NCBI GenBank assembly: GCA_033439255.1
Contig: CM065878.1
Location: 4,712,001-4,776,000, forward strand
Reading direction: 5' to 3'
DNA: 64,000 nt
Source of the DNA: Hericium rajendrae
Lineage: Eukaryota; Basidiomycota; Agaricomycetes; Russulales; Hericiaceae
Each line of letters opens with the position of its first letter. The first letter of the stretch is position 1. A program made the position numbers and the translations under genes. Positions 4,760 through 64,000 of the stretch are shown piece by piece. A model generated the notes under the pieces. It was given only the letters and a program-made list of their open reading frames with translations, searched no databases and was not told the DNA's origin.

Positions 4760-7319
4760 AATCCAACTGTATTATATCCTTCTATCATCCACTCTGAGAC
4801 GTCTGCCCATCGTGCATTATTGACAAACAACATGGTGCGTAGTATCAGTCAATGTCTGGTCGATATGATATTTTGAACGCCATTTCTTGAAAAGCCGTCG
4901 TCAATCCTTTGTGGCCGTATCATGCTCGAAGTGACAGATGAGAAATTCATGCGCAAACCGCAATCCCTGCTTTTGTCCACTGCTTCTGTTTATTGGGCAG
5001 TGAGAGACCAACTCTAGCTTCACGACATGGAGTTCTTAATGCACAATTCAAAAAGGATTCAAATACATTGGATACGCTGAGTGGATTCTTGATCATTGGG
5101 GTAGTCTGACATGAGAGCAAACATAGTCAATACTGTCAAATGAAGTCTTTAGAATCGACACCAAGATCACTTTTCTGCAATTTTGTGAACTGAAGCATGT
5201 CAGAGAACGGATAATCATGACCAAATACCTCCGACGTACGCCAACTCGTCTTCTCGGCGAAATTGGCTCACTGCAGTGCCAGCGCGGTTGAGGCTTGGCC
5301 CTACGTTGCTCGCTGTTCTGGTCCAGAAAAACCAAGGTGAACTAAAACATCTCGCGAGATTTACGGAGGCGTTCTACAGTGTTCTCGTGCTGTGTACTCT
5401 GCAGAAAGGCATATTATACTCGTCGTGTGTTAGCTAGACATTCACGTGCATGTGATTCCACGTTTCCCAACTTCCGAACGGCGAAAAACACGCTTTCTTC
5501 CTTCTTTTCCACGAAGACAAGGCAGACACGCGGCAGCAGTAAGTATCCAAGGCACAAAGGCCACGCGCAAACGCTGCAGCGGACTCAACTTGCTAACACC
5601 TTAGTCGTCCTGCTTTCCAATTTTATCTATCTCAGTTACCCCTTTTGCTCGGGCGCAGGCGAGGCTTCGAAAACCGAGGTAGATGCGCGAACAATTCCAC
5701 TCGTTCTTTCCCTCGTAAGTCCGCCCTCATATCCGACTCGCGGTGATCGTTTCCGTGCTGACGGCCAGATTGTGCGTGTCCTACAGGCAGAATCGGTGTT
5801 TTCTCGGGCGCGGACGCGTGCAGAGCGCGTCTGCGCTGCCCGTCGCGCAGAAATGGTGATGATTTGCCAACGTCGTCAGCGTCACGTCCGAGTATCGGTG
5901 ACATGCGAGATTGAAGCGCTCTGATTTTGACAGGATTTTCCACCCGGGGAGGTCGAGTATTTCTCGGCTGCCCGATGTTTCTCCTGCTACCGATTGTTCC
6001 AGGCAGGGATGGCAGACACTTCGTGTCGGCCATCTAAAAAATAAGCTAGGTCGTCTAGCTTTTTATGCACGTACGACTGCATCGGGTAACATCGAGAGAT
6101 GGGGTAAAGAACGCAGCGCACCAATTTTGAAGCATTGCATGCGCATTGCTCTTCTTCCGATCCATCGCGCGTTGCTTTCCCCACTCAGCCGTCACCCCGT
6201 CCTTTCACCACGTATCTATGGTTCTCACCGCGCGAGGAGATTAACTACCAGCTTTTCGGACAGCCCCAACCGCAAGTTTCTACGTAGAAGACGCCGCGCC
6301 ACCGACCGTCTGCCTACCACATCTGGTGATCCTCGGCGTTTTGCGAGCACCCAAACCAGACCAATTCCTGGACGGTCGGTGCTCCAAAACCGAGAGGGTC
6401 CAGACGACCGTGCCGATGTGTTTTGGACCCAGCCGTCTTCGCAGAATCCGCCTGCTTCTCCTCGGGACGCATGCGAACCGCGCCTTCTAGCTATACGCCC
6501 CGCGCTCACTTGACCACCCGGCCTTTCCTCCTGCGCCGCTGGGCCTATCGTGTCTGGTCTCTTCTGTGCCCCGGCTCGACGCAGCCGCCGCGGTCCGCCG
6601 CGGTGCATGCACCGTCTTTGTCAAATTTCCGACGTCGACGCTATCGCAGCAGCTGCCCACGTCGGCGCGATTCCTATCAGCCGCACGCACCTGCCCCTGG
6701 CACCGGACGCAACCCGGCGGTTCTCAGCTCTGCGCCCCGCAGGTACTGCTCGCGCCCCGCACCCGCATCCCACACGCACGCACCCAAAGCAGGATCCAAT
6801 CGCTGCGCCCGCGCGTTCTTTCTCTCGCGCGACGCATCGAGCACCGGCCGTTCTCACCGCGCAGGTTGCAAGGCTGCTGCTCCGCCCGACGGTTCGTAGA
6901 GCGGTTTTGTGGCGCCCTTCGTGATTGGAAGGCCGAAGCTGCGTGCTCCTGTGCAGTGGGTAGCGGATATCCAGGCATGGAGGCCATGAGAGCGGGGGTA
7001 CCCGCGCTGTCGCACACCTGGGATCGCTGCTATTTGCGCTCGTCCGAGGTTGTGGTATATGTGGTGCTTTTCTGGTGCAGAGGCTTGGGGCCCCGCAGAT
7101 CGATTGAGCACGGGTGACGGCAGCGGGGGTGAACGTAGTATGCCGTAAGTCCATTCAATCCCCGTGATCTTCGTCTGCGGCTACCCATTAGCCTTCGACG
7201 ACTGGCCCATATGCTTCCCGCACGAACAGCACGTTTGAACATAGGTATTGGAGGGGTACCGCAGATCACAGTTATGTACAACTACGCCAACGTTATATAC
7301 ATCAGCCTCCCTTCCGCAT
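4760..7319. other. GC-rich intergenic region, no gene supported
   Basis: About 2.5 kb between prefoldin 6 and the dienoyl-CoA reductase. The left part (4760-5350) is AT-rich; from about 5600 to 7150 it is GC-rich with many overlapping open frames on both strands, none with recognisable domains or consistent splice structure. An isolated ATG followed directly by a splice donor (atg|gtgcgt near 4831) looked like a start-codon exon, but no matching downstream exon was found. Confidence 0.5.
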
Positions 7320-10445: not shown

Positions 10446-12046
10446 CTAGTGCCCTTCCATTTTGATGCGGTCCCAGTAGCTGAGCGGCGGCGCGCCGGGC
10501 GGCTCGGGCGCGAGCGTCCCCAGCATGCCGTGCGCGCCCAGCGGCGGCAGACAGCGCGCGGGAAGAAGCGAGGGCGGCGTGCGGCGGTCCTCATGCGCGT
10601 GCGCGTACGGCGAGGCGAGAGCCCCGCGCCCGAGGAAGCCCCCGCCCGCGCCCGCGGAATCGTACTTCGGCGCGCGCCCGCCGCCGAAGCCCATATCGCG
10701 GTAGGAATCGTGTGCAGAGGCGGGCGCGGGCGCGCGATATGTGTCCGCGGAATTGTCCGGGAAGAAGCTCGACGTGAGCGGGTGGTAGCGTGCGCCGCCG
10801 GAGCCTGCGCCTGCGCCTGCGCCCGAGGTGGAGAGCTGCGGCGATGTGCTGCTGTTGCTGCTGCTCGTGTGGCTCGTCGTGCTCGACCAGGGCCGGTGCG
10901 GCGGCGGCGAGTGCTGAGCGCCCGAGAGCGAGCGCTCGCGCGCACCGCTGAGCGCAAGGCCAGGATACATGTTCGTGCTGTGGGGCCGCTGACGCACGCC
11001 CCCGCCCCCGGTGCCCGCAGTGCCAGTGCGGTCGCCGCTCCAGTTGAAATTGTACTCGCCAAGGCTGTCGGACGGTGCGTAGGTATTCGGCCGGGGGAGG
11101 TGGTTGTCCGCAAGGTGCGTGTGTGTTTGCGTGCGGTAGGGGTCATGTGTGTCGTGAGGGGCAAGCGGGGCGAGGGAGGGTACGTCGACTCCGCGTGGCT
11201 GCATCGACGGGAGGCCGGCTATGTGTCCATGTGGGCTGCCGAAGTGGCTTGGGGCGAGATCCGCGAGGGGGAAGCCGTATGACGCGGCGGGGCCATGCGC
11301 GTTCTCGTAGGGCAGGCCCGCGTGGCCGCGATGCGAAGGGTAGGGCGACGGGTCGTCGCGCTCGGTGGGATACTCGAAGTCCTGGAAGCCGGCAGCGGCG
11401 TCGTCAGTGGGGTCAGCTGACGGGCTGGGGTTGAGCGGCGTGCTGAGGCTCGCGTCGGACCTGCGCTTCTTGCGGGAATTGTTCGGGCGTCGTCTGTACA
11501 CGTAGTCCGGATACTTGGCATTGAAATTCTCCTTCAAGCGCTTTGCCTGATTGAGATAGAACTGCTTCTCGGACTGCGGGGACGGGGTGGTCAGCAGGCG
11601 TCGTCGCGGGGAAGCAGCGTGGGGGGCTACCATGTCCATCGAATTCCACTCCTTGCTCAGGATCTTGCTGATTTCCCCTGTGCGCATCATCTGGTTCTCG
11701 GCGGACACCTGCGGGCGCCGCCGCCGAGCAAAGATCATGAACGCATTCATGGGCCGCTTGGGCGTGCCATCCGTGTTGAGCGTCTGCGCTGTCAACTGCG
11801 TATCTTCTACGGGGGCGGGGGGTGACGACCGGCACGGCTGCGGAAAAATAGAACGGACGTACCTGGGCCATCCGGATCTGTCTTGGAGCTCTGGCCATAC
11901 ACCGCGAAGCTAAGACTGTCCTCTGAGGACGGCGAGCTGTCGCGCTCGCGGGTGTGTCGCTCGTTGAGCATGGGCGGGTGATTGAGCGCGGCATCTTCCG
12001 AGCTGCCTTGGCTGTGCACCGCAGAAGCAGCATCAAAGCGGCTCAT
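10446..12046 (-). CDS. HMG-box transcription factor
   Basis: Three exons (12046-11863, 11806-11631, 11573-10446) give 495 aa. After a Ser-rich acidic N-terminus the HMG box spans about residues 70-150: PKRPMNAFMIFARRRRPQV, then GEISKILSKEWNSMDM, then SEKQFYLNQAKRLKENFN and AKYPDYVYRRR, followed by a basic NSRKKRR stretch. This is the sequence-specific MATA/SOX-type box, which bends DNA at A/T-rich cores. The remaining 340 residues are low-complexity (Ser, Pro, Gly, His, Tyr) and may be a trans-activation region. An intron lies inside the HMG box after WNSMDM. In fungi such proteins control mating, fruiting or filamentation, but which role applies here cannot be told. Very long gene-free flanks, especially upstream, fit a heavily regulated gene. 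A Met nine codons upstream is an alternative start. Confidence 0.88.
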
Positions 12047-27765: not shown

Positions 27766-28196
27766 ATGTCCTCGAACACCACCCATCACGCCGCCGCCGC
27801 CGCCGCCGCTTCAGATCAACTAATGAGCTATTTTTCGCATCGTGCGTCTATTCAATAAGCTTTGTCGAGATTAATATCGCACTCACCATGATTTCCCTAG
27901 TCTCTCTTGCTTCCACGAGCGCCAGATGCCCTGGTACAGAGATTCCTGTCAAGCGAGGGCCTCTCATCGAAGAATATCGCATCGGAAACATAGCAGAGCA
28001 CATAGTGAAAGGAGCCTACACTTTCGGTGACCTGCTGAGAGATATTTCCGACACGGACGAGCAGCTGGCGATCGCTAGGCGGCGCTACCCAAAGCACGTG
28101 CTGAGAGAAGAATATACGCTCGACGACCTGCAGAGAGACACTGGTTATACGGACGAGCAGATGGAAGGGATAGTGAATTCTGCGTTACGATTCTGA
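27766..28196 (+). CDS. small protein with two tandem helical repeats
   Basis: Two exons, 27766-27841 and 27901-28196, joined across a 59-nt intron (gtgcgt...ccctag) in phase 1, give 123 aa. It starts MSSNTTHH followed by seven Ala from a GCC run. The second half carries two copies of a motif: AYTFGDLLRDISDTDEQLA and EYTLDDLQRDTGYTDEQME, consensus Y-T-[FL]-x-D-L-x-R-D-x-x-x-T-D-E-Q, each followed by a predicted helix (IARRRYPK, IVNSALRF). No family recognised and no signal peptide or membrane segment. The repeat pattern and phase-consistent intron argue for a real gene. Direction and spacing suggest no link to its neighbours. Confidence 0.55.
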
Positions 28197-28357: not shown

Positions 28358-29190
28358 TCAGTCGAGCCTACCATCGAACCTATGTGACATTCTCTTTCTC
28401 TCGTGAGCTGCCTCTAGCATGGTTTCAAGTTCCGGAATCCGCTTCTGCGCATCCTGAACATACACGATCGCTGCTCATAGCCAGGATCAATCTGAGCTGC
28501 ACCATTCTTAAGACGAGTTTAAGCAAGATCCACGCACCCTGCTCGACTACCCTCATCGTCGGCTTGTCATCGTGAAGCTGCAGAGATTCTGGAAGCAGAG
28601 AATTCAGCTTTGCTAGATTGTCGCTATTCCGAACTCTGCGTTCTATTTGCTTCACAGCGGCTCTGCTTCGTTTCGGCGGAGAACGATGGCTTTCAAGGGC
28701 ATTCCTAGAGCATTTGCGCCTTTTGTCGATAGAATGGAACTCGTTTTCCCAAATACGATCTTCGGTTTGCCGGTCATGAGGGCTGGAAGGTACGGCATGA
28801 GTCTCATTGTTCCAGTGAGGACGGCACATAGCCGATGGCAAATCACTGCGGGGGTGTCCGCTTGGTCCTGAAATTGCGCAGCGTCGAGCTGGGATACTTG
28901 TCCTAGAATCCAAGAGACAGCATGGCATATCCGTGCACAACGGTTCTAGGAAGCCAGGATGCTGGAAGCTGTGACATCCAAATGAGCCATGCTACTTAGC
29001 AGTAAAAATGGGTCAACTTACCTCTCGCTCGTTCGATAGACATCAGAGTGCGTCGCGGCGATCTGTGAAATGCCATCGAGTTCAGAGAAAGTCCTCTTGG
29101 CATAGATACTTGACTCTTGAGTGGTAGAACTTGGGCCTCGGGGCCGATTGAGCGTCCTGGCCTCGGGCCAGAGGCAAGAATGCGATGCAT
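28358..29190 (-). CDS. bHLH-like protein (dispersed family member B)
   Basis: Three exons (29190-29022, 28945-28538, 28470-28358) keep frame and give 229 aa. The N-terminal 160 residues are polar and unrecognised. The bHLH-like part reads PPKRSRAAVKQIERRVRNSD (basic and helix 1), then NLAKLNSLLPESLQLHDDKP (helix end and loop), then TMRVVEQAIVYVQDAQKRIP (helix 2) and a short zipper ELETMLEAAHERKRM. The last intron (67 nt, gtgcgt...gagcag) splits the Ala codon of AIVYV in phase 1, the same place as in members A, C1 and D. Nuclear DNA-binding or dimerising role inferred from fold only. The start Met at 29190 is the first that leaves the splice frame intact; an upstream exon is possible. Confidence 0.6.
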
Positions 29191-30095
29191 CCCTGGAATA
29201 TGGCTGGGGGTCGTACATCTCTATCATATATGGAGCTGGAATCGTCAGAAATGTCTTATACCAAGATGGAGGCGCGGTGATCACCTTCATTGACGGATAT
29301 GGAATAAGGACGCACCGTATGGGATACAAGAACCTCGTAATGATCGCGGATTTGGTCAGAACTGCAGACGTTGCCGGAGGCTCATGCAGCGCAAAAATTG
29401 CAGTACAAATCATCAGAGACATCTTGCAGGAGCTGTGAAATCGCTGTTTGAGCTTCAAGGCTGATGGGTTCGAGACTTAAATGCAACACGTCTCAACTAC
29501 GTTCAATACGCACCTTCATACGGATTCAGCGACCAAGACCCCTTATAAGGTCAGAGGTACCATATGCAGATTCAATTCGTACTTGACAATAATGGCCAAA
29601 ACGGCAGACTACAAGCAAGCCGTACCGCGACCGAAAATTGCAAACTCGGGATGATGCATCCCTGGTCGGTCGGAAATGTGCGACAAAGCCTTGATGAAAA
29701 CTGCAAGGACACAGAGAATTTCTATTTTAGTTGCCCAAGAAGTGATGGGAACCAAAATGGGGGAGCTTGAAGCATGATTCTAAGCACGATAGATACCGTC
29801 GTGGTCGTAAAGAGCTCGAGGATGAGTGGCCCAATAAGGCAATCGCTCAGAAGAGAGGCCATCTCAGCAGATCTCGGTGTTCTCGGCCTCGTATTTGTAC
29901 TCGCTGCCTCTACACAAACTTCACTTCACTTCGCATCCGTACGAGCTTTGGTTTTATCATCTTATTGTGGAACAATAAAAAATCGATCCCCGCTGATTGA
30001 TCGAGGAACTCGTGAATCCCAAATTTTGTGCCCGCTCGTCGGACGGCTCTCGATTTTCTTCATCTGACCACACAACTCTGTTGCAGATATTGCCG
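29191..30095. other. intergenic, no gene supported
   Basis: Between bHLH member B and the F-box gene. Open frames on both strands around 29020-29460 are antisense overlap or chance. A possible upstream exon of the F-box gene lies near 29997-30084, before a ttgcag acceptor. Confidence 0.4.
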
Positions 30096-46883: not shown

Positions 46884-48965
46884 ATGGCTATCAAAAACTC
46901 TGTGCCAAATGGCACCGCTGATGCACCTATAGAGGTTTCTGCAACGCCCACGGTTATCGGCATCAACTTCGGAAACTCATATGCTTCAATTGCTATATTG
47001 AACAAGGTACATTACTTTGCTAGTTTCTGAGAATGGTACTGACGATCATGAATGACAGGAAGGCCAAGCTGAATGTATTGCTAACGAGGATGGAGAGCGC
47101 CAGATTGCTTGCGCGATCTCGTTCAACGGGGAGGAGATGGTGAGTTTTGCTTCACCTCCGAATCTGTGCCCTTTACTAATCCGACTGTTCTAAGTACATT
47201 GGTAGCCAAGCGAAGCACCAGCTAGTAAAAAATGCTGAGAATACCATCACAAACTTCCGGAATAGTCTGGGCAAAAAGTGAGAAATGCTGACATATCCAA
47301 TTCTGCCCGTTTGTCTGACCGTATACATGCAGATTCTCTGAGCTCCCAAAAGACAAGGCGACTGTGTCGACCCCTGTCATCCAGCACCCTGATAAGCAGG
47401 ATGAGCCTGCGTACAAGGTCAAGGTTCTGCAGGCATCCCCCTCGCCTCTGCCGTCTGCCGCAGCCACCAAGGCAAACACCCCCGCAGCTTCCCAGACCGC
47501 GACGCCGCGTTCCGAGCCCGTCCCCGCAGAGAGGGTGCTGACGGCTTCGGAAGTCACAACTATCTTCCTCAAATCCCTACTCCAGTCTGCAGAGGACTTC
47601 CTTGGCAAGAAGGTCTCCGGCGCCGTCATCACCGTTCCCGGCTGGTTTGAGCCCAAGCAGCTCGACGCGCTGCGCCAGGCCGCCAAGGACGCCGGCATCA
47701 ATGTTCTCCAGCTGCTCGACGATGCGGCTGCGGCTGCGGTCGCATCTACTTCTGGCCCCCAGGCAGACGGCCTCTACCCGGACCGGACGCAGCTCATCGT
47801 CGACCTCGGCGCGTCCTCCCTCGCGCTCACCCTCCTCTCCGTGCGCCAGGGCCTCTTCTACCCCCTCGCGACGTCCTACGACTTCTCCGTCGGCGGCGAC
47901 CAGATCGACGACAAGCTGGTCAAGTTCTTCGCCAAGGAGTTCACAAAGAAGACAAAAACCCCCCTCACAGTCGTCCCCTCGACGGACAAAAGCGACGTGC
48001 GCGCCGAGGCGCGCCTGCGCCTCGCGCTCGAGCACACAAAGCGCACCATCTCCGCATCGCCCGGCGCCGCGACGTGCTCCGTCGAGTCGCTCAAGGACGG
48101 GCTCGACTTCACGGGCACGATCAACCGCCTGCGCTTCGACATGGAGGCGCGCCCCGTCTACAGCACCGTCTACGACCGCGCGGAGGCGCTCCTCGCGCGC
48201 GCGGGGCTCGACTTCCTCCACGTCGACGAGGTCGTGTACGTCGGCGGCTCCGCGAGCCTGCCCGGGCTCGACGAGGCGCTCGCGCACGCGTACCCCGAGT
48301 CGGCGGTCACCGCGTTCGCGACGGGCACGATCGTCGGCGGCGGCGTCGGCGACCCCACGACGCTGCTTGCGCGCGGCGCGGCGCTGCAGGCGAAGCTGCT
48401 TGCGCAGATCGGGCATTCCGGCGAGGACGAGGAGGTGCGCAGGGCGTTTGAGCAGGGCAGCAAGTGGGCGGATGTCAAGGCGACGTCGCGGTCGGTTGGC
48501 GTGCTGTTCCCTGAGGAGGGCGAAGAGGTGCTCGGCGGACAGTGGATCTCGGTGGTGCAGCGCGAGACGGTGGTCCCTGCCAGAAGGACCATCTCTCTCA
48601 ATGTCGATCTGGGTGAGGCTGAAGGCGAGAAGAAGGTCGGCTTTGAAGTCTGGGAGGTCAAGGAGGGCATCAAGGTGGAGAAGGTGAAGCCGCCGAAGGA
48701 AGAGGAGGAGGAACCCGTGGAGGAGGAAGAGGAGGAGGAAGAGGAAGAAATCGAGGTCAAAGAGAAGACGATCGAAAAAGACTCATTCTTGACTTCCGTC
48801 GGGTTCTCAGCGCAACATGCGACAAAAGTAAAAGGCCGGTGGCAGACGAAGGTAGACATACAGTTCGTAATTGGGTCAGACGGTGCCATCGAGGTGTCGG
48901 CATGGGAAGTGGGCAAAGCCGGAAGAGGCGAGAAGGCATCTAGCTCTGTACCACCCCTCCAGTAA
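46884..48965 (+). CDS. SSZ1: Ssz1-like ribosome-associated Hsp70
   Basis: Four exons (46884-47006, 47059-47139, 47195-47277, 47333-48965) give 639 aa, about 100 more than yeast Ssz1. The ATPase fold shows VIGINFGNSYASIAI (phosphate 1), IANEDGERQIACAISF, VSGAVITVPGWFEPKQLDAL, LLDDAAAAAVAS and VVYVGGSASLPGLDEAL. The phosphate-2 loop reads LIVDLGASSLALTLLSV, lacking the Thr/Gly pattern of active Hsp70s, which fits Ssz1. There is no full substrate-binding domain. Ssz1 pairs with the J-protein zuotin as the ribosome-associated complex that drives Ssb on nascent chains. Two extras stand out: a Pro/Ala/Ser-rich insert of about 40 residues (47425-47540), and a Glu-rich tract (about 48695-48760) followed by a conserved-looking tail (KGRWQTKVDIQFVIGSDGAI). 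Confidence 0.88.
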
Positions 48966-56020: not shown

Positions 56021-57215
56021 ATGGCCCTGCCGGCCCCCATTGCCCTGTCCATATTTGCGTCTTACTTTGGAATCATTGTAGCTCTCTTCTGGCTTATAAT
56101 TAGTTCTCTGCCAAGGCGCATCCCTCAAAATGTCTCCAGGACACGCGTTTACATGTTCATCGAGCTCACCCTCGCGTCGTTCGCTCATACCTGGTATTGT
56201 GCGTGCCACAGCGATGGCAGTGTACCTGAGCCTTCACTCACATGCATGACGCCCCAGATATGTTTGCGTTCATGAAAGTGGGTGAGGCTTCTGCCCAGCT
56301 AGTCTCGGCTTCTGACGACGTGGTTAGCGAAGCTTTGTAGACTACGAATTATCCACGCGTGCTGCAAATCGCGCTCTGCCTCTTTCGACCCGCATCACGA
56401 TTTGGCTTTCCAATACCGCTCTGTTTGAGCAAGCCTGGGCAGCCGTGTGCCGCACCCCGGCGAACTGGTGGTGGAGCGAGCAGCTATGTCTCTTCACCGT
56501 GGGGGCCTGGACGGTCATGCTCTACACCTACGGCACGTTCCCCCTTCCGCACGACGGACTGACGTTAACAACGCTCCCAGGCCGCTCCCACCGCATCAAG
56601 TACGTATGGGCCTACATGCTCCTCGGCCAACTCGTCGCCATCTCCGTCGCCTCCAACCTCTTCTACCTCGCCCTCCTCCTGCACCCGCCCCCGCGCCCCA
56701 CCAAACCGCAGCCCCTCCCCTGGACAGTGCACCTCCCCGTCTTCCTCTCCCTCTGGACCGTCTCCCGCGTCCCCGCGTCCCTCGCACACGCGCCGCCCTA
56801 CTTCCTCGAAAACCTCCTCACGATGCACGCGCTGCTCTTCCTCCCCTTCCTCCCGAACCGCACCCTACACCGCCTCCTCCCGCCCACGTCCTTCCTCGCG
56901 CTCCCCCCGCGCACAGTCTACATCCTCATCCACCTCACGTCGCTCGTCCTCCGCGCGCGCACCGTGTTCGTCTTCGCGGGCACCATTCCGGCACCGCGCA
57001 CGTTCGCGAGTGTGGCGGGCGTGCTGTGGGGCGCGCTGTATTCGCATCCGGCGCAGGCGAGCATCGGGTGGGACGTCGTGTGGACGACGCTGTCGTTCGT
57101 CGCGTGGAGCGGGCGCGCGCCGCGCGCGAGGGGCGTGTTTATCCCGTTTGCGGCGGGCACGGCGGTTGCGTCGGTGGGCGTCGTTGCGCCGGCTGTGCTT
57201 GCGCTGTATGCGTGA
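56021..57215 (+). CDS. fungal multi-pass membrane protein, unknown function
   Basis: Three exons (56021-56198, 56258-56277, 56328-57215) give 361 aa; the middle exon is only 20 nt and keeps phase on both sides. About seven hydrophobic segments are visible, beginning ALSIFASYFGIIVALFWLII, then CLFTVGAWTVMLYTYG, YVWAYMLLGQLVAISVAS, LLFLPFLP, TVYILIHLTSLVL, FVFAGTIPAP and AAGTAVASVGVVAPAVLALY. A conserved-looking NWWWSEQLCLF motif precedes helix 3. I know similar uncharacterised proteins from Agaricomycetes but no function. Divergent from the CDCA7-like gene. Start MALPAPIAL chosen because it directly precedes the first helix. Confidence 0.7.
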
Positions 57216-58080
57216 GGTGTTCTTGGCGATGATGCAGGGGCGCGATCTATGTTGTGGGATTTTGTATAGAATGATTATGGGTGCTTGGATATTCGTTGTC
57301 GCAGATTCCGCTGAGTAGCCATCGATTGTTCCAGACGTGTTTACTCAAGGATGTAGGGCTGCGTTTCGGTTTCCGATACCAGGCGGGCGGGACATGCGGC
57401 GTTCTCATTTCATAACTCAAGTTGCGCTTGACGAGCAACCATGCCATATTCCGCATCGTGGTACGCTCCGTACATGTCGTCCAAATTACGCAAACTATCA
57501 GTGCGGTGAGCTACACGTGAACATCAGGCCGGTTCGATGGTATCCATGCAGATCAGCCAGCTTAATTGTCGATGCTGGCTGCTTGTGCGGCCGCGGCTCA
57601 TCCTGTCACCTCAACTACCATATCAACAAACCGGCAATGATCATGGTTCCCGTGGTTGTGCCCATCGGGATGAGCGCCAGCGTTGTTCTCGGAGCAGGGC
57701 TGATGTCCTGCCCTTATTCTCGCTCTCCGTTGCTCACAGGAATGCTGACAAGCTCAGTTGTAGATTTACTCTTCAGGTCAACTCGGAGTGCCACATTTGG
57801 AAGTCGGGAAGCAGTGTGCGTTGGCGATAAGTAGGGATTAAGAGATTCTAGTCCTTGATTTGAAGCTTATCACTTAATTCTTAGGCTGTCTTTAATAGTT
57901 TCATAGCTGCTCGGGCCATTGTAATGACCTAGCGTTGCTGGTAACCTTGTTCCCAAGGCCCACTTGTGCCATCCACGCATGGATGCGTCGAAGACGATAG
58001 CAACAGCATATAAAGCAGCCACAACCTACAATAGTTTTCGTATTTTTTCTCCTCGCGCCTTCTCTCTATAACTGACTGAC
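57216..58080. promoter_or_regulatory. intergenic region ending in a family promoter (TATA at 58009)
   Basis: No gene in 57216-57880. From about 57900 the sequence (tagctgctcgggcca, then cgaagacgatagcaacagca) matches the upstream regions at 60.1 and 63.4 kb. TATAAA lies at 58009-58014, 72 bp before the start codon at 58081. Confidence 0.6.
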
Positions 58081-58673
58081 ATGCAGCACCCCTTCGCTCC
58101 TGAAGCATCCCCAATATGGCCTCCCGCCTTGCTCAACCCTGCTATGTTCCCTCCCGCATCGAGCATGAAGCTTTCACCATTTGAATGGGCATGTCGCAGT
58201 CCATTGATCGACGATGCGCGTCTCCAAAAAGCGAAGATGCGCAACATGATGGGGAGGTTCAAGCTCCCCATCGGAGACAACGCGTCAGTTGAGTCCTCGC
58301 CCTCGCCTTCCGGAGTCGGCGGCAAACGCAAGAGCTGCCCGTCACCTCCACCCGACACAGTCAGCACTGCCGACGCGCCGCCGAGCAAGAAGACGAAGCT
58401 TGCCAAAGCGGAATCAGAAGAAGAGGTGAAGGCGACAAGAGCCGAGGGCAGGAAGAGGGCCCAGGGGTACAGGAATAAGAATCCAGCGACGTCGCCAAGC
58501 TCATCGAAAAGCTCCTCAGTCATCTGCAGCTTGACGGGGAGAAGCCACGGCACAGAATATTAGACATAGTGCGTACGCGCGCGTCTTTGATCGAGATGAT
58601 GCCGGAACTGATTGCGGGTGCAGCAGTCGTTTACATTGACGAGCTGCTCCTGGTGAGGAACAGCAGCACGTAG
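58081..58673 (+). pseudogene. bHLH-like array copy C1, one frameshift
   Basis: Begins MQHPFAPEASPIWPPALL. Residues about 55-130 align with member D: NMMGRFKL against SKMGRWRL, and a GGKRKSCPSPPPDT against ELKRKDRASSPPETT stretch, then a KKTKLAKAESEEEV basic-acidic segment. The bHLH basic part KATRAEGRKRAQGYRN is in the start frame, but helix 1 (ESSDVAKLIEKLLSHLQLDG then EKPRHRILDI) continues only in the next frame, so about one base is missing near 58475. The helix-2 intron (gtgcgt...gggtgcag) is intact and splits the Ala codon in phase 1, leading to AVVYIDELLLVRNSST and a stop at 58671. The zipper is truncated relative to D. Without the frameshift repaired the product ends at 58563. A sequencing error is an alternative. 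Confidence 0.7.
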
Positions 58674-59006
58674 CCAAGCTCGTTGAAGGTTACCCAGCCA
58701 TTTGCGGCTTGATAGAGACAAGCTGTTGATGCAGAATGGTACGTGTGACCACGGTTGAGACAACGTCAGTGCTGATTGTGTATACAGCGATCACCTACAT
58801 CGATGAGCTCGAGGGCGAAATTAATCGGAATCGTTTGGTGCTGAACAATTGAAATCTGCGCAGCCCATTCCTTGTCGCTCTTCACGGCAGAATATACGCG
58901 CTGCAGGCGGAGAACATGTCCTCTCGACAAAGTCTCGCTCAGCAAGGTCACAGGATCAGAGAATTGGAAGCCGCCAGCACGTTGTGCGCGGGCGTGCATC
59001 AGTAGG
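58652..59006 (+). pseudogene. bHLH-like array copy C2, truncated
   Basis: Only the helix-1 to zipper part remains. EEQQHVAKLVEGYPAICGLI resembles SDVAKLIEKLLSHLQL of C1. The helix-2 acceptor (gtatacag) is kept and leads to AITYIDELEGEINRNRLVL before a stop. A later segment in another frame reads LHGRIYALQAENMSSRQSLA and QQGHRIRELEAAS, the equivalent of the zipper. Internal stops and frame changes mark it as non-functional. It overlaps the end of C1 by about 20 bases in a different frame, which suggests a fused tandem break point. Confidence 0.65.
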
Positions 59007-59045
59007 AGACGATTTTGTGACGTGCTGAAAGTCGTTGGCTGATAT

Positions 59046-59505
59046 AGTTCCAGTCATGCATCTACTCAAACGGGAGCTTCGCCAGTCGTTCCTCCAGAGC
59101 CGTCGCCGAGTACGGTCGCCACGTCCTTTCCGGAGGCACACACGCGACTGCCCACAAACCGCGCGGGCAGCATCGAGACGGGCGGCGCCGAGGACAAGAG
59201 CAAAGGCGCGCGCAAGCAGGACGATATGCGTGATATGCGACGGAGCCTGCGCGCCGAGCCGAACGCGCTACTACCGCCATCGTACCGTCAGCATAGTCTC
59301 CGAGCAGACCTCACCCAGAAGATAGTCATTCTGTGTTACCGTCAGCACTCGCAGCAGCCGGACGCGCGGGCCATTGGCAGAGATGAGCTCGTCCTCATAG
59401 CTCCGCGGACGCATGCTGGTCGTGCATGCAGCTATGGACTACCTCCACATGCTGCATGCGATGATAAAAGATTTGCGGAGGGAGCTGGATGCGCAGTACC
59501 GATGA
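59046..59505 (+). pseudogene. bHLH-like array copy C3, degenerate
   Basis: An open frame reads SPVVPPEPSPSTVATSFPE, then GAEDKSKGARKQDDMRDMRR (basic, helix 1) and NALLPPSYRQHSLRADLTQK (loop, start of helix 2). The expected donor has been lost. After a good acceptor (cgtgcatgcag) the sequence resumes AMDYLHMLHAMIKDLRREL and stops at 59505, giving a recognisable second helix and short zipper. No start codon in a family promoter context was found. Confidence 0.6.
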
Positions 59506-59701
59506 TCAGACTACCGGGGACGATAGCGCGGAGACAGTGTCGCGAGAGGGATATTCGGAGGGTAGGAGGATGGTTAATGCATGATTAAAGGTTCGATCTT
59601 TTGTCGTCGAGTATAGAGTGCTAGAAATTACTGCAGCACTGCAGCACTAGTAAAGCTTCTAGAAGGCTCGTAGAGTTAGATGAGAAATCGAGGTGAATAT
59701 G

Positions 59702-60347
59702 TCCGGAAATTGCCGACTTCTCTTGACCAACCTGCAGGCGCCTGCCTTCGTCACTCCTGACCTCCACGGTTCGAACTGCAGCTCGGTGAAGCAAGAGCCA
59801 TGGGTTGCAGATCTGCACAGTCAGAATAAAGGTGCAGTGCACAGCGTATCCTATGACAAGGTGCGGCTATCACGTACGGGGCTTGTGCTCGAATTGGGGT
59901 TGCGACAATGGCGTTGGCCCTTGTTCTCGTTTTCAGTTGATGACAGGAATGAACAACCAAGGCAGACCAGCCATCCAGCATGGCTCCATCCAAATCTCAT
60001 CTAGAAGACGGGACAATATATTCTGGTAGCATGCTACTCATTCGAATGGTATCGGTGTGTCTTCGCTGTGATCATGAGCAGCGTCTATAGCTAATATGTA
60101 GAGATTTTCTCATGATTTGACTTTCTAGGAAACCCTTATAATGTCCGTAGCTGCTCAGCCCGTCGTTAAGTTATGTTGTTCATTGTATTTGCTGACAATC
60201 TTGTCTCCACGAACTTGCTTGTACCATCTATGGAGAACGACTTGTCGAGGATGATGGTGCTATCATATAAAGTCGCCAAAATTCAGGACGTACAATTAAC
60301 CATTCATCTCGCCGTCTCACAGCTCACTGTTACAACTAACGACCGAC
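59702..60347 (+). repeat. tandem duplication unit, left copy (with promoter)
   Basis: Segments here recur in order near 62891-63594: ggaaattgccgact, ggcgcctg, tgctcgaattggg (tactcgaattggg), gctcagcccgtcgt, acttgcttgtacc, and ctatcatataaagtcgc. The offset is about 3.19-3.25 kb. The right half is the promoter of member D with TATAAA at 60266-60271, 82 bp before its start codon. Confidence 0.8.
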
Positions 60348-61551
60348 ATGCAGCACTCATATCCCTCAGCTCACGGACCATCCCGACCTTCGTCCCGGAG
60401 ACGGTCTCCTACCAACCTTGACTATGCAGAATTCAGCGCTGGCGCTACTCAGCCGCAGAGTTGGCCGTATGACCCACGCATTTCTACGACAATGACAGCG
60501 ACTAACCAACTCTATCAATCGTAAGTTGAACGTTGTGCTTGCTCGTAGACGCAGCTTACCCCGCGGCGCTGTAAAGAGCAACCCAGGATGGATATCCATA
60601 TTATACACAGCCCGCTGAATCCTCTTACCATACCCAAACGGCTACATCCTCACCGAGCTATCAGAACTATAATATATACCCTACTAATACTCAGTAAGTT
60701 CAAAATAACATATTTTCCTCGTGAAATAGTTGACACCCTCGCTAGGTCATACCAGCAGACCGGCGCCTCGTATCAGAGCGCTCCGACGTTCGCTGGGACT
60801 TCACCTTCGTACTATGATTCCTCGGCGCAACCCTCCATCAGCTACACCTCGGACTCGATACACCAACATGTTGCTGCTGCTGCCGTCTCTTTAATCACCA
60901 GCCAACCTGCGCCCAGCGTGAATCCTACATCATCGGAGACGCGAATCAAAACTTCTAAGCTCACAACTCGCCGTCCAAAAGATAGCAACCCGGACATGAA
61001 CAGCAAGATGGGTAGGTGGCGGCTCGGAAAGGACCTACCGGCCCAGCCCCCATCTCAGCCTTTCGCGATCGGTGAGCTGAAGCGCAAGGATCGCGCGTCG
61101 TCCCCACCAGAGACAACTAGAAAAGCCGAAACTGTGACGAAGAAGGCTAAATCAGCAGAGAGGTCTAGGACCGTCAGAGCCGAGTTGAGCGAGGACATCG
61201 CCAAGCTCACTGAGAGGCTCCCCCCTCGTTTGCGGCACGAGGGGGATAAGCCGTCGAGGAAGAACGTTGGATATGGTGCGCTCGTCCGTGATAGAGATGA
61301 TTACAATGCTGATTTTATGTGCAGCGGTCGTCTACATTGATGAGCAAAACGCCCGCATCGGGACACTCGAGACGGAGACTGCTCAACTCAGGACTGCCCA
61401 GGTGCATCTTGAGTCTGAAAATTTTGCTCTCCTAAAGCAACATCAAGTCCTGGTGCGTGAGAATGCGGATCAACAACGCCGTCTCAATGAAAAGGATGTG
61501 ATAATTGGAGAATATCAGAGGGAACGGCAGACATGGCAGCACTTGTATTGA
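60348..61551 (+). CDS. bHLH-zipper-like protein, intact array member D
   Basis: Four exons (60348-60520, 60577-60693, 60746-61275, 61325-61551) keep frame throughout and give 348 aa. The N-terminus (MQHSYPSAHGPSRPSSRRRS) and Tyr/Gln/Ser-rich segments (TQDGYPYYTQPAESSYHTQ and YQNYNIYPTNTQ) look like a low-complexity activation or phase-separation region. A Lys-rich stretch (TRKAETVTKKAKSAERS) may be a nuclear signal. The bHLH-like part reads RTVRAELSEDIAKLTERLPP, loop RLRHEGDKPSRKNVGY, then helix 2 AVVYIDEQNARIGTLETETA running into a long leucine zipper (LRTAQVHLESENFALLKQHQ ... QRRLNEKDVIIGEYQRE). The third intron splits the Ala codon at the start of helix 2 in phase 1. Its sequence also resembles that of C1 (gagatgat and tgtgcag shared), showing recent common origin. 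A nuclear dimeric regulator is inferred from fold only. Confidence 0.75.
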
Positions 61552-61653
61552 ACGTGTATAGTTTGTATAGTTACGAGTCATGACTTATCTTATTGCATCG
61601 ATGACACTAGAGACTCTGTTGGAAGAGGATGAGAAACCCAGCGTAGCTAAGTT

Positions 61654-62082
61654 TCAATGACCCTGTCCGTATCTGCTCTTTTGCAGAATACGAGATCTGT
61701 TGCGTGCCTCGTTGGCATCCCGCGTGTCCGCCAGATTGGCGTCACAACGAACATGATCCTCCGCCTCCTCATCCGTGCACCCATAGAATTCCTTGAAAAA
61801 GTCGCTGGGTTGCGTCTGCCCAGCTTGCGTTCGTGCGTGGAAGTCTTTGAGGTGGTTACTGTGGGCACGACGGAAATCCCTAGCACGTTTTGACGCGGCA
61901 TCGAACTCAGCTCCACTGATCTGCCCACTGAAATATGCAGCTACCGCAGCTTCGTACTCGACCTGCGCAAGCGCAAGCTTGTCGCCGCGAGCAACCTTAT
62001 CTGAAGCTTGAATAAACAAAATGCAACGCCGAACGAGAACAACCGTACCAATCTGAGCGGATTTATATTCTATCGAAGACAT
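61654..62082 (-). CDS. small hypothetical helical protein
   Basis: Two exons, 62082-62049 and 62006-61654, joined across a 42-nt intron (gtacgg...attcaag) in phase 1, give 128 aa. It is highly charged and helical (KLALAQVEYEAAVAAYFSGQ, then SGAEFDAASKRARDFRRAHS, then SDFFKEFYGCTDEEAEDHV), ending KSRYGQGH. No signal peptide, membrane helix or known domain. It sits on the opposite strand inside the duplicated unit of the bHLH array, between members D and E, and might be duplicated with it. Confidence 0.55.
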   Translation of the reverse strand: MSSIEYKSAQIGTVVLVRRCILFIQASDKVARGDKLALAQVEYEAAVAAYFSGQISGAEFDAASKRARDFRRAHSNHLKDFHARTQAGQTQPSDFFKEFYGCTDEEAEDHVRCDANLADTRDANEARNRSRILQKSRYGQGH

Positions 62083-62890
62083 CAGTTTCGAACCTATGCA
62101 ACGTATGCTGTTGGCTCACGATGGGCCGAGATGGCAGACTGCATGGCCTTAGGTTGGATTATATAACGGCCTGATTGACCCGAGGCAGCGCCATACGACA
62201 TCGAGGAGCTCGAGGGATAAGACATAGTTATAGCCTATGATTCAAATCAACTTGCGGATCGCTAAATGTGTGTCTGTCAACAGAACCTACAATGAGGAAG
62301 ACGGCGATCTTGTGTGGTCAAAACTTACAGACGGTGGATATGGTAATGAAAAGTCACTGGAAACGGAACTTGGGACTCGTCCGTCGGCTTATATACATGC
62401 AGACAGGACCGCGGAGTGCATTCAAATCTCAGGAAATATCAGAGTCGATTGTTGACTACCTTTTGTCTCTGCGTCGCTCCCTAACGAATACGTGCATGCC
62501 ATGGCGATGTGGTATGCATCAATTTGATCAAACTGCAGAGGTGGCCGCTATGCCACATAGAGGTAGCTGCACTCAAACCTCACCTACATGACAATAGGCC
62601 TCAATTTGCGACGACCAAACAAAAGAAATGAATCGCCGTCGTTGTGGCGACTGCTGGGGATGAACAACACAATTGGCCAATGAAAGCATGGCAGGACGCG
62701 TACGTACGATCAATGAGGCCACAAAAAGCGCCGCCAGCCATTTTTTGTTGCACACGGCACAGTAAAACATCGCAGATCACATCGATGACTGGCAAGAACG
62801 AGATACCAGAAAGGTGTATGAGGGATTGTACCGTTGAGATTTGGAGTCGGTGCGTCTTTTGTGTTCAAGCTGCTGGCTGAGCTGGCAATT
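62083..62890. other. intergenic within the array, no gene supported
   Basis: Short open frames only. An ataacggcc-type start region for the minus-strand gene lies near 62160. No similarity to the 59.0-59.7 kb interval was seen by eye. Confidence 0.4.
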
Positions 62891-63594
62891 AGCCGGAAAT
62901 TGCCGACTGTTCAGAATACGGGCGCCTGGCCAACCGAGTTTCTTCGAAAATCTTCCTGTGCCAGTGCAGACATCCTCCCACTTCAGCGACAGCTCTCGAT
63001 TGACTATCGCTCGCCATGGGTAATGCAAGGGTATTCTAGAAGACTAGCCGAAAAGTATCTCTCAATACAAGGTACGCTCTTGATGTGCTTATCAGTAGGA
63101 GTGTTTTGTACTCGAATTGGGCCTGTGACGATGGCCTTGTTCTTGTTCTCCATGGCTCACAGGGTCACGGACGAGATAGACGGCTCTACTCAAGCCAGTA
63201 ACATAGTTCATTACAGTTACAGTAAGTACTCAGTACTCAGGTTGAAGATGGCAAGTATATTTTCTGTGGCTGGACGTGCGGTATGAGATTACTTCGTTGT
63301 AAGTATTGAACGTCTGGAACCGCGAATGTGAGTAAATACTCGTATTAGCGTCTGCTACTTACCCTCTGATGCTCTAGGTAATCCTTGTTAGGTCCGTACA
63401 TGCTCAGCCCGTCGTCAAGACTTGTTGTCCATTGTACTTCCTACGACCTTGTTTCATGACCTTGCTTGTACCTCTATAGATGGATGACCTGTCGAGGACG
63501 ACGATGCTATCATATAAAGTCGCTCAAATCCAGGACGTACCGCAAACCACTCATCGTAACGTCTTACGTCTCATTCTTACGTTTCACGACTGAC
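62891..63594 (+). repeat. tandem duplication unit, right copy (with promoter)
   Basis: The counterpart of 59702-60347. TATAAA lies at 63513-63518, again exactly 82 bp before the start codon of member E, inside the conserved ctatcatataaagtcgc block. Differences from the left copy are scattered substitutions and indels. Confidence 0.8.
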
Positions 63595-64000
63595 ATGGAG
63601 CACTCGAATTCCTCTAATCATGGACCATCCGGACTGTCGTCTCGGAGAAGGTCTCCTGTCATTCTCGATCCTGCTCGCTTCAGCGCTGGTGCTGCTCAAA
63701 CACAGGGTTGGCCATATGATGCCACACGCAATTATACAACGATAGCAACAACACCAAATGGACAATACCAATCGTGAGTTGAAGTTTATCCTTGGTCGCG
63801 GATGTAGGTTGACCCACGGTGTCCCCCAGTACAACGCAGGTTGGATACTCGTATCCTCCCCAAGCGACAGAATTTTCTCATACCGAAACAGCTCAATATG
63901 CATATACCCAACCAGTCGCACCCTCGTCGAGGCACCAGAACTATAACGTATACCCTAACAATACGCAGTAAGTTTATTGTAACCGACTTTACTGATAAAA
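63595..64000 (+). CDS. bHLH-zipper-like array member E, cut by window end
   Basis: Exons 63595-63773 and 63830-63967 have the same phases (both phase 2) as exons 1 and 2 of member D. The protein starts MEHSNSSNHGPSGLSSRRRS against MQHSYPSAHGPSRPSSRRRS of D. It continues GWPYDATRN against SWPYDPRIS, and exon 2 reads TTQVGYSYPPQATEFSHTE to YQ/HQNYNV-type ends (RHQNYNVYPNNTQ against SYQNYNIYPTNTQ). The DNA-binding part lies outside the window. No frameshift is visible, so this copy may be intact. Confidence 0.75.

Follow-up and report, generated by a model that had tools for sequence, protein, structure and literature searches.

What is encoded by the row of related genes that begins at the right-hand end of a 64,000-nucleotide stretch of the Hericium rajendrae genome (hereafter the window; positions 4712001-4776000 of contig C1), and do these genes form a system of their own? 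Contig C1 measures 5.31 Mb in a genome of 46.8 Mb and 19 contigs, and is distinct from a relic gene also named C1, at 58.08-58.67 kb in the window. A preliminary description of the window had seen a tandem array of basic helix-loop-helix (bHLH)-zipper-like genes there and had proposed that their products dimerise in a recognition or regulatory system. We found that each of these genes, here called A, is accompanied by a small convergent gene, B, that a common promoter element precedes the A genes, and that the zipper exon of A and the third exon of B form an island of divergence between closely related modules. Our preferred reading, held tentatively at a probability a little under one half (about 0.48), is that the array consists of co-regulated two-gene modules, each with a linked specificity cassette made of the zipper and B.

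The A genes of two modules, D and E, lie wholly or partly in the window:

60348-61551, plus strand: gene A of module D, exons 60348-60520, 60577-60693, 60746-61275 and 61325-61551
63595-64000, plus strand: 5′ part of gene A of module E, exons 63595-63773 and 63830-63967, modelled from the fetched contig

All A and B gene models rest on homology. A of D, already described as intact, is a homology-guided four-exon splice model of 348 amino acids (aa) with GT-AG introns and no stops, and related exons occur in 14 other modelled copies. A of E had been called probably intact; it encodes 361 aa and is intact once the contig is read past the window end, beyond which its HLH-like unit, zipper and partner B are located. 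Translated whole-genome searches with pieces of D and of a sister gene (relative counts from these are lower bounds) placed A relatives almost exclusively at 4.77-5.20 Mb of contig C1, a clustering that makes the array more than chance and extends it far past the window. The family comprises 15 modelled genes over 430 kb, on the plus strand at 4.772-4.817 Mb (D, E, F, G, H, I) and on the minus strand at 5.006-5.203 Mb (r5006, r5010, r5015, r5018, r5022, r5026, r5034, r5126, r5201), with a diverged member at 5083 kb that was omitted from all divergence work. Twelve are intact, with open reading frames of 329-391 aa, and three carry stops: F at codon 4, r5018 twice, and H together with the loss of the AG at its last 3′ splice site and exons 1-2 that allow no clean fit. 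A four-exon model with introns of about 50 bases fits 14 of the 15 genes (r5010 and r5026 have a short exon 2), and the last intron, of phase 1 in D, interrupts the HLH-like unit at a constant place across the family. The architecture first noted in the window, a Tyr/Ser/Pro-rich N-terminus, a Lys-rich stretch, an HLH-like unit and a zipper, could be aligned in all 12 intact members.

The zipper is the clearest part of A. Exon 4 spans 62-99 codons and carries a hydrophobic heptad repeat continuous with helix 2; the best heptad register is identical in all intact members (12/12), and the hydrophobic contrast beats shuffles at P<0.05 in 11 of them (r5022, P=0.19). Several alignment gaps in A measure 7 residues, and total zipper lengths are not all equal modulo 7 because the tails differ. 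The label bHLH-zipper-like thus holds for its zipper half, while the HLH similarity is remote and the basic signature is not conserved. Full-length D matched no Pfam family, and no HLH core from the intact genes exceeded the curated cut-off of PF00010 (0/12); r5034 fell below it with 15.9 against 20.7 bits (E=0.012) while covering nearly the whole profile. With longer A pieces, HLH was not among the 25 listed of 93 Pfam families. Against a profile of six bHLH pieces from the same genome, the A family aligned over 69 columns (score 20.0, E 0.0045, probability 8%), a score reached by none of 300 column shuffles. No bHLH protein was among the 28 PDB sequences listed for the A family profile, and the candidate PDB relatives of the A C-terminal part (best E 0.042) were set aside, being coiled coils, designed proteins and chance matches. 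Classical bHLH basic regions have conserved Glu-Arg contacts. By eye, this signature is not conserved in A, where one Arg before helix 1 is invariant; D has E-R-x-R, which other members do not conserve. Given the sub-cut-off Pfam scores and the remote profile similarity, we call the unit HLH-like and leave DNA binding aside; A, regulator-like in its architecture, may nevertheless act on DNA.

The partner gene was absent from the preliminary description, as was the promoter element. In module D it was found by tblastn and genome search:

61654-62225, minus strand: gene B of module D, exons 62225-62120, 62069-62049 (a microexon) and 62000-61654, 157 aa

A B gene of about 157 aa, helical in prediction, lies convergent with A in 15/15 modelled A genes, the two stop codons standing 95-172 bp apart. 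Its first exon has 35 codons and its last about 115, with a microexon, usually of 21 bases, between them. Models were selected by a score that penalises stops, and 16 of 17 are clean at 151-158 aa, the exception being r5018. B of D had no Pfam match, and its third exon, given to AlphaFold2 without an alignment, returned an all-helical model (mean predicted local distance difference test score, pLDDT, 80; predicted template modelling score, pTM, 0.52). Tightly linked convergent pairs that multiply in tandem, leave pseudogenes and have no known relatives are also what would be expected of a genetic-conflict system in which each module joins a harmful gene to a protective one and spreads by unequal exchange. 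We regard this as very unlikely, since A resembles a nuclear regulator, F and H combine a broken A with an intact B, and B copies without a detected A exist.

B-like sequences also occur apart from the modelled modules. Further matches lie at 5086, 5101 and 5104 kb of contig C1, and contig C10 holds a clear match at 1282803-1283015 (55% identity, E 3.8e-17), where no A match was reported. Weak matches (E 3e-6 to 3e-4) occur on contigs C12 and C19, each with a very weak convergent zipper match beside it (E 0.06 and 0.27), the two together covering about 62.7-65.0 kb of C12 and about 22.8-25.0 kb of C19; these are perhaps a dispersed diverged module, perhaps on a duplicated contig end. On contig C1, a diverged B (E 3.7e-5) and a convergent, very weak A-like frame (E 2.2) occupy 5037121-5037570 on the plus strand and 5038509-5037829 on the minus strand.

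We then aligned the sequences upstream of the 15 A genes, which share a TATA box and a nearly invariant block. Within the window this block is represented twice:

60152-60170, plus strand: promoter element of module D, TGCTCAGCCCGTCGTTAAG, one mismatch to the family element, 196 bp before the ATG
63401-63419, plus strand: promoter element of module E, exact match, 194 bp before the ATG

The 19-mer TGCTCAGCCCGTCGTCAAG has 15 genome sites at ≤2 mismatches, every one of them 177-220 bp before a modelled A ATG; the pattern read backwards, as a control, has one. At ≤4 mismatches, searched in the fetched stretches and the window, two extra sites appear, one near the 5083-kb gene and one at 4720419, where there is no modelled gene.

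Divergence along the module was measured in pairs of modules elsewhere in the array, and the corresponding stretch of D was placed by position:

61325-62000, strand not assigned: proposed specificity island of module D, zipper exon 4 of A plus exon 3 of B

Identity in A exons 1/2/3 is 94/92/95% for r5010/r5026, 92/88/86% for r5006/r5022 and 86/81/90% for r5015/r5034, and in exon 4 it is 82.1%, 58.2% and 74.5%, respectively. B mirrors this pattern, with 89%, 86% and 91% in exon 1 and 78.7%, 61.1% and 71.5% in exon 3. Synonymous divergence (dS) in the same three pairs is 0.12, 0.33 and 0.23 in A exons 1-3 against 0.55, 2.1 and 0.91 in exon 4, and 0.17, 0.29 and 0.28 in B exon 1 against 0.70, 1.3 and 1.1 in exon 3. 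In 6/6 pairs the flanking exons show a lower frequency of pooled synonymous differences than the island (Fisher P 1.3e-3 to 5e-13; exons 1-2 of H were omitted from the G/H count), and dS of A exon 4 exceeds that of exon 3 in 9/9 pairs. Past the right edge of the island the three pairs named above are again similar, in B exon 1 and in the sequence that follows, though for only about 400 bp in r5015/r5034. The smallest dS in A exons 1-3, 0.12, does not bear out the earlier impression of active duplication.

An island of this kind might also arise neutrally, if gene conversion started near the promoters and faded toward the 3′ ends, so that the 3′ ends in mid-module stayed old without any function in specificity. 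The island is indeed the stretch most distant from both promoters. Fading exchange would give a slope, however, and the three closest pairs show a plateau and a step: r5006/r5022 are 98% identical at 740-820 bp after the ATG and 55% at 1020 bp. Identity drops within about 200 bp of the exon 4 start in all six close pairs and near that start also in D/r5018, and less clearly in the more distant D/r5010 (nine pairs profiled). We consider such conversion polarity unlikely. The two modules r5006 and r5022 are mutual nearest relatives in their promoters, in exons 1 and 3 of A, in exon 1 of B and in the sequence upstream of B; in exon 4 of A and exon 3 of B they are not. Similarly, r5034 is a mosaic whose nearest promoter is in r5018 and whose nearest genes are in r5015. 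The flanks may have been homogenised by gene conversion, and an island visible in close relatives is what is expected if the flanks, but not the island, became similar only recently.

No positive selection was found in the zipper, and dN/dS (the ratio of nonsynonymous to synonymous divergence) is below 1 in both flank and island among the pairs listed. Tandem expansions of regulators are common, and both this and the constraint would suit a regulator family that merely expanded in one lineage, as such families ordinarily do, and carries no pairing code. Such an expansion would leave the constant partner, a promoter element found nowhere else and the island all unexplained, and we judge it highly improbable. 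Modules built of common parts and a private specificity cassette are the simplest account to cover partner, promoter and island together.

We also compared the nonsynonymous (dN) distances of the zipper, B exon 3 and A exons 1-3. Distances and Mantel tests used 13 of the 15 modules, F being kept despite its stop codon, and H (A exons 1-2 degenerate) and r5018 (no clean B model) being omitted; trees and topology tests used 14, without r5018. Zipper and B exon 3 distances are correlated (Mantel r 0.47, P 0.0004), also when A exons 1-3 are held constant (partial 0.44, P 0.0005). B exon 3 shows no correlation with A exons 1-3 once the zipper is held (partial 0.04, P 0.35). Topology tests on the zipper, B exon 3 and A exon 3 were mixed. 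The A exon 3 tree is well supported; in those of A exon 4 and B exon 3, many branches are weak and the tips are long. By the approximately unbiased (AU) test, A exon 3 data reject both other trees (1e-5 and 1e-4); for B exon 3, the tree of A exon 3 is rejected (P=2e-5) and that of the zipper is not (0.059).

These results suggest how a module might work. Each would encode A, a regulator-like protein with a low-complexity N-terminus, a Lys-rich stretch, the HLH-like unit and the zipper, and B, a small helical partner. The A zipper and the helical domain at the C-terminus of B, encoded next to each other at the tail-to-tail junction, would act as one linked specificity cassette that sets which A and B, or which A dimers, pair, whereas the promoter, the N-terminal part of A and the N-terminal exon of B would be common parts kept alike among modules. 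A and B are predicted to touch, with the island setting the specificity of pairing. The diverged zipper and B island lends support to the idea of a putative dimerisation or recognition system, put forward before B was seen.

Alternatively, only the zipper might matter, its divergence insulating paralogues against cross-dimerising, with B exon 3 diverged merely as a neighbour some 100 bp away that also escaped homogenisation. The zippers are clear and their register is kept, B and zipper are adjacent, and the zipper data reject the B tree, all of which fits. B exon 3 is equally diverged, yet B keeps 151-158 aa in 16/17 models with dN/dS <1, which argues for a maintained domain, and three pairs show the island reaching as far as the N-terminal part of B. 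On balance this alternative seems to us somewhat unlikely.

Several observations weigh against a cassette of zipper and B, or limit it. The sample is one haplotype of one genome. The zipper is also correlated with A exons 1-3 (Mantel 0.32, P 0.007; partial 0.27, P 0.023), and for the zipper it is the tree of B exon 3 that is rejected (AU P=0.019) and that of A exon 3 that is not (0.105); the correlation of zipper and B exon 3 could itself follow from adjacency or linkage alone, because the exons are neighbours. The contrast between island and flanks nearly vanishes over all 78 pairs of the 13 modules, with median dS of 1.08 in A exons 1-3 and 1.24 in the zipper (11 pairs saturated), and of 1.05 in B exon 1 (2 saturated) and 1.44 in B exon 3. 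Only three pairs show the right edge of the island, in r5126/r5201 exons 1 and 3 of B are diverged to an equal, high degree, and the 250 bp upstream of A are only 72% identical in r5015/r5034. There is no excess of nonsynonymous change. At least three B copies (4806, 5013 and, in part, 5132 kb) lack an A visible to the family hidden Markov model (HMM), and B exon 3 of the window drew 107 Foldseek matches, none better than E 0.94 among solved structures.

Degenerate and distant relatives of A occur elsewhere in the window:

58081-58670, plus strand: C1, relic A gene, family HMM E=2.7e-14 and HLH profile E=1.7e-6 in another frame
58730-59002, plus strand: C2, weak relic (helix 2, perhaps zipper), HLH profile E=0.0011 and zipper part E=0.032
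28361-29240, minus strand: A′, diverged single A-like gene, hhalign against the A family E=1.1e-10 and HLH profile E=9.2e-6

The frameshift ascribed to C1 was recovered as a break between the Lys-rich and HLH-like parts. C2, listed as a truncated member, survives as a weak relic, and a third locus at 59.3 kb (C3) had to be dropped, as it gave no family HMM match up to E=5. The C3 site (59294-59338) instead carries a dispersed sequence of about 45 bp, with copies 87-98% identical on many contigs and both strands. Together with the intact genes, those with stops and the mosaic modules, the relics support a tandem array under birth-and-death evolution. No RNA element reached Rfam gathering scores in window positions 57000-64000.

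A′ has an intron at the same place in its HLH-like unit, a short zipper and an approximate 5′ end, and matches PF23174 (bHLH_ILI) with 15 bits, under the cut-off of 27. Convergent with it lies a small frame, B′ (27888-28193, plus strand), with a GYTDEQ motif resembling that of B. Only 11 residues of B′ and B align, at a score equalled by 1 of 200 shuffles, and the B HMM has no match to B′. A′ and B′ are possibly an old solitary module.

Two unrelated frames in the window carry recognisable domains. An HMG box (PF00505, E 1.9e-12) is found in a frame at 10446-11909 on the minus strand, and a partial HSP70 domain (E 9.2e-44) in one at 47319-48965 on the plus strand, overlapped by a 401-codon open frame on the opposite strand. 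Elsewhere in the genome, several STE3-type pheromone receptor genes are clustered at 4205734-4253418 of contig C2, likely the P/R mating-type locus, and Homeobox_KN matches lie at 1.19 Mb of contig C3 and at 2.09 Mb of contig C1, 2.7 Mb from the array. Together with the introns of about 50 bases, the receptor cluster points to a fungus of mushroom type. With these loci elsewhere, the idea that the array is part of a mating-type locus was unsupported.

How does the array compare with known systems? Among the matches listed in a literature search, the openings of the abstracts held no description of a system like the A and B modules. The resemblance to bHLH-leucine-zipper proteins lies in an HLH-like unit that runs directly into a zipper and in the remote profile similarity to bHLH proteins of the same genome; the array differs in its Pfam scores, its unconserved basic signature and its constant convergent partner. 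Fungal allorecognition, at het loci or in basidiomycete somatic incompatibility, offers a second parallel: the title of one study attributes to het genes a narrow stretch of high divergence (PMC11138114), as in the array, although A and B of D have no known incompatibility domain (no Pfam match). The mechanisms of basidiomycete nonself recognition were called completely unknown in a passage of a 2021 paper (PMC8229728). A bolder reading, and to us a rather doubtful one, takes the array for a multi-locus system of self/nonself recognition or nuclear identity that has not been described before and is separate from the known mating-type loci, with many orthogonal zipper-partner pairs under a common promoter type, its cassettes kept diverse by balancing selection and the rest homogenised. 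Both the pairing and the self/nonself function in it are extrapolated from sequence; were they real, the array would be a candidate molecular basis of nonself recognition in basidiomycetes.

A further parallel is with HD1/HD2, the homeodomain mating-type genes of mushroom fungi, described in a passage of PMC8305134 as divergently transcribed pairs with an N-terminal specificity domain for heterodimerisation. Divergent transcription and N-terminal specificity domains would place the two specificity parts side by side. In the array, too, two neighbouring genes recur as paralogous pairs whose variable parts are predicted to dimerise, and the variable regions of the tightly linked A and B adjoin. 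The array would be a mirror image, in that its genes are convergent and its variable parts C-terminal, and it has 15 modules with a zipper and a helical domain in place of homeodomains (no Pfam homeodomain match in A or B of D). If zipper and B domain form matched pairs, the array would supply about a dozen natural, mutually orthogonal protein pairs that share a promoter type, and the HD1/HD2 principle of adjacent specificity parts not separated by exchange would be repeated in another protein family.

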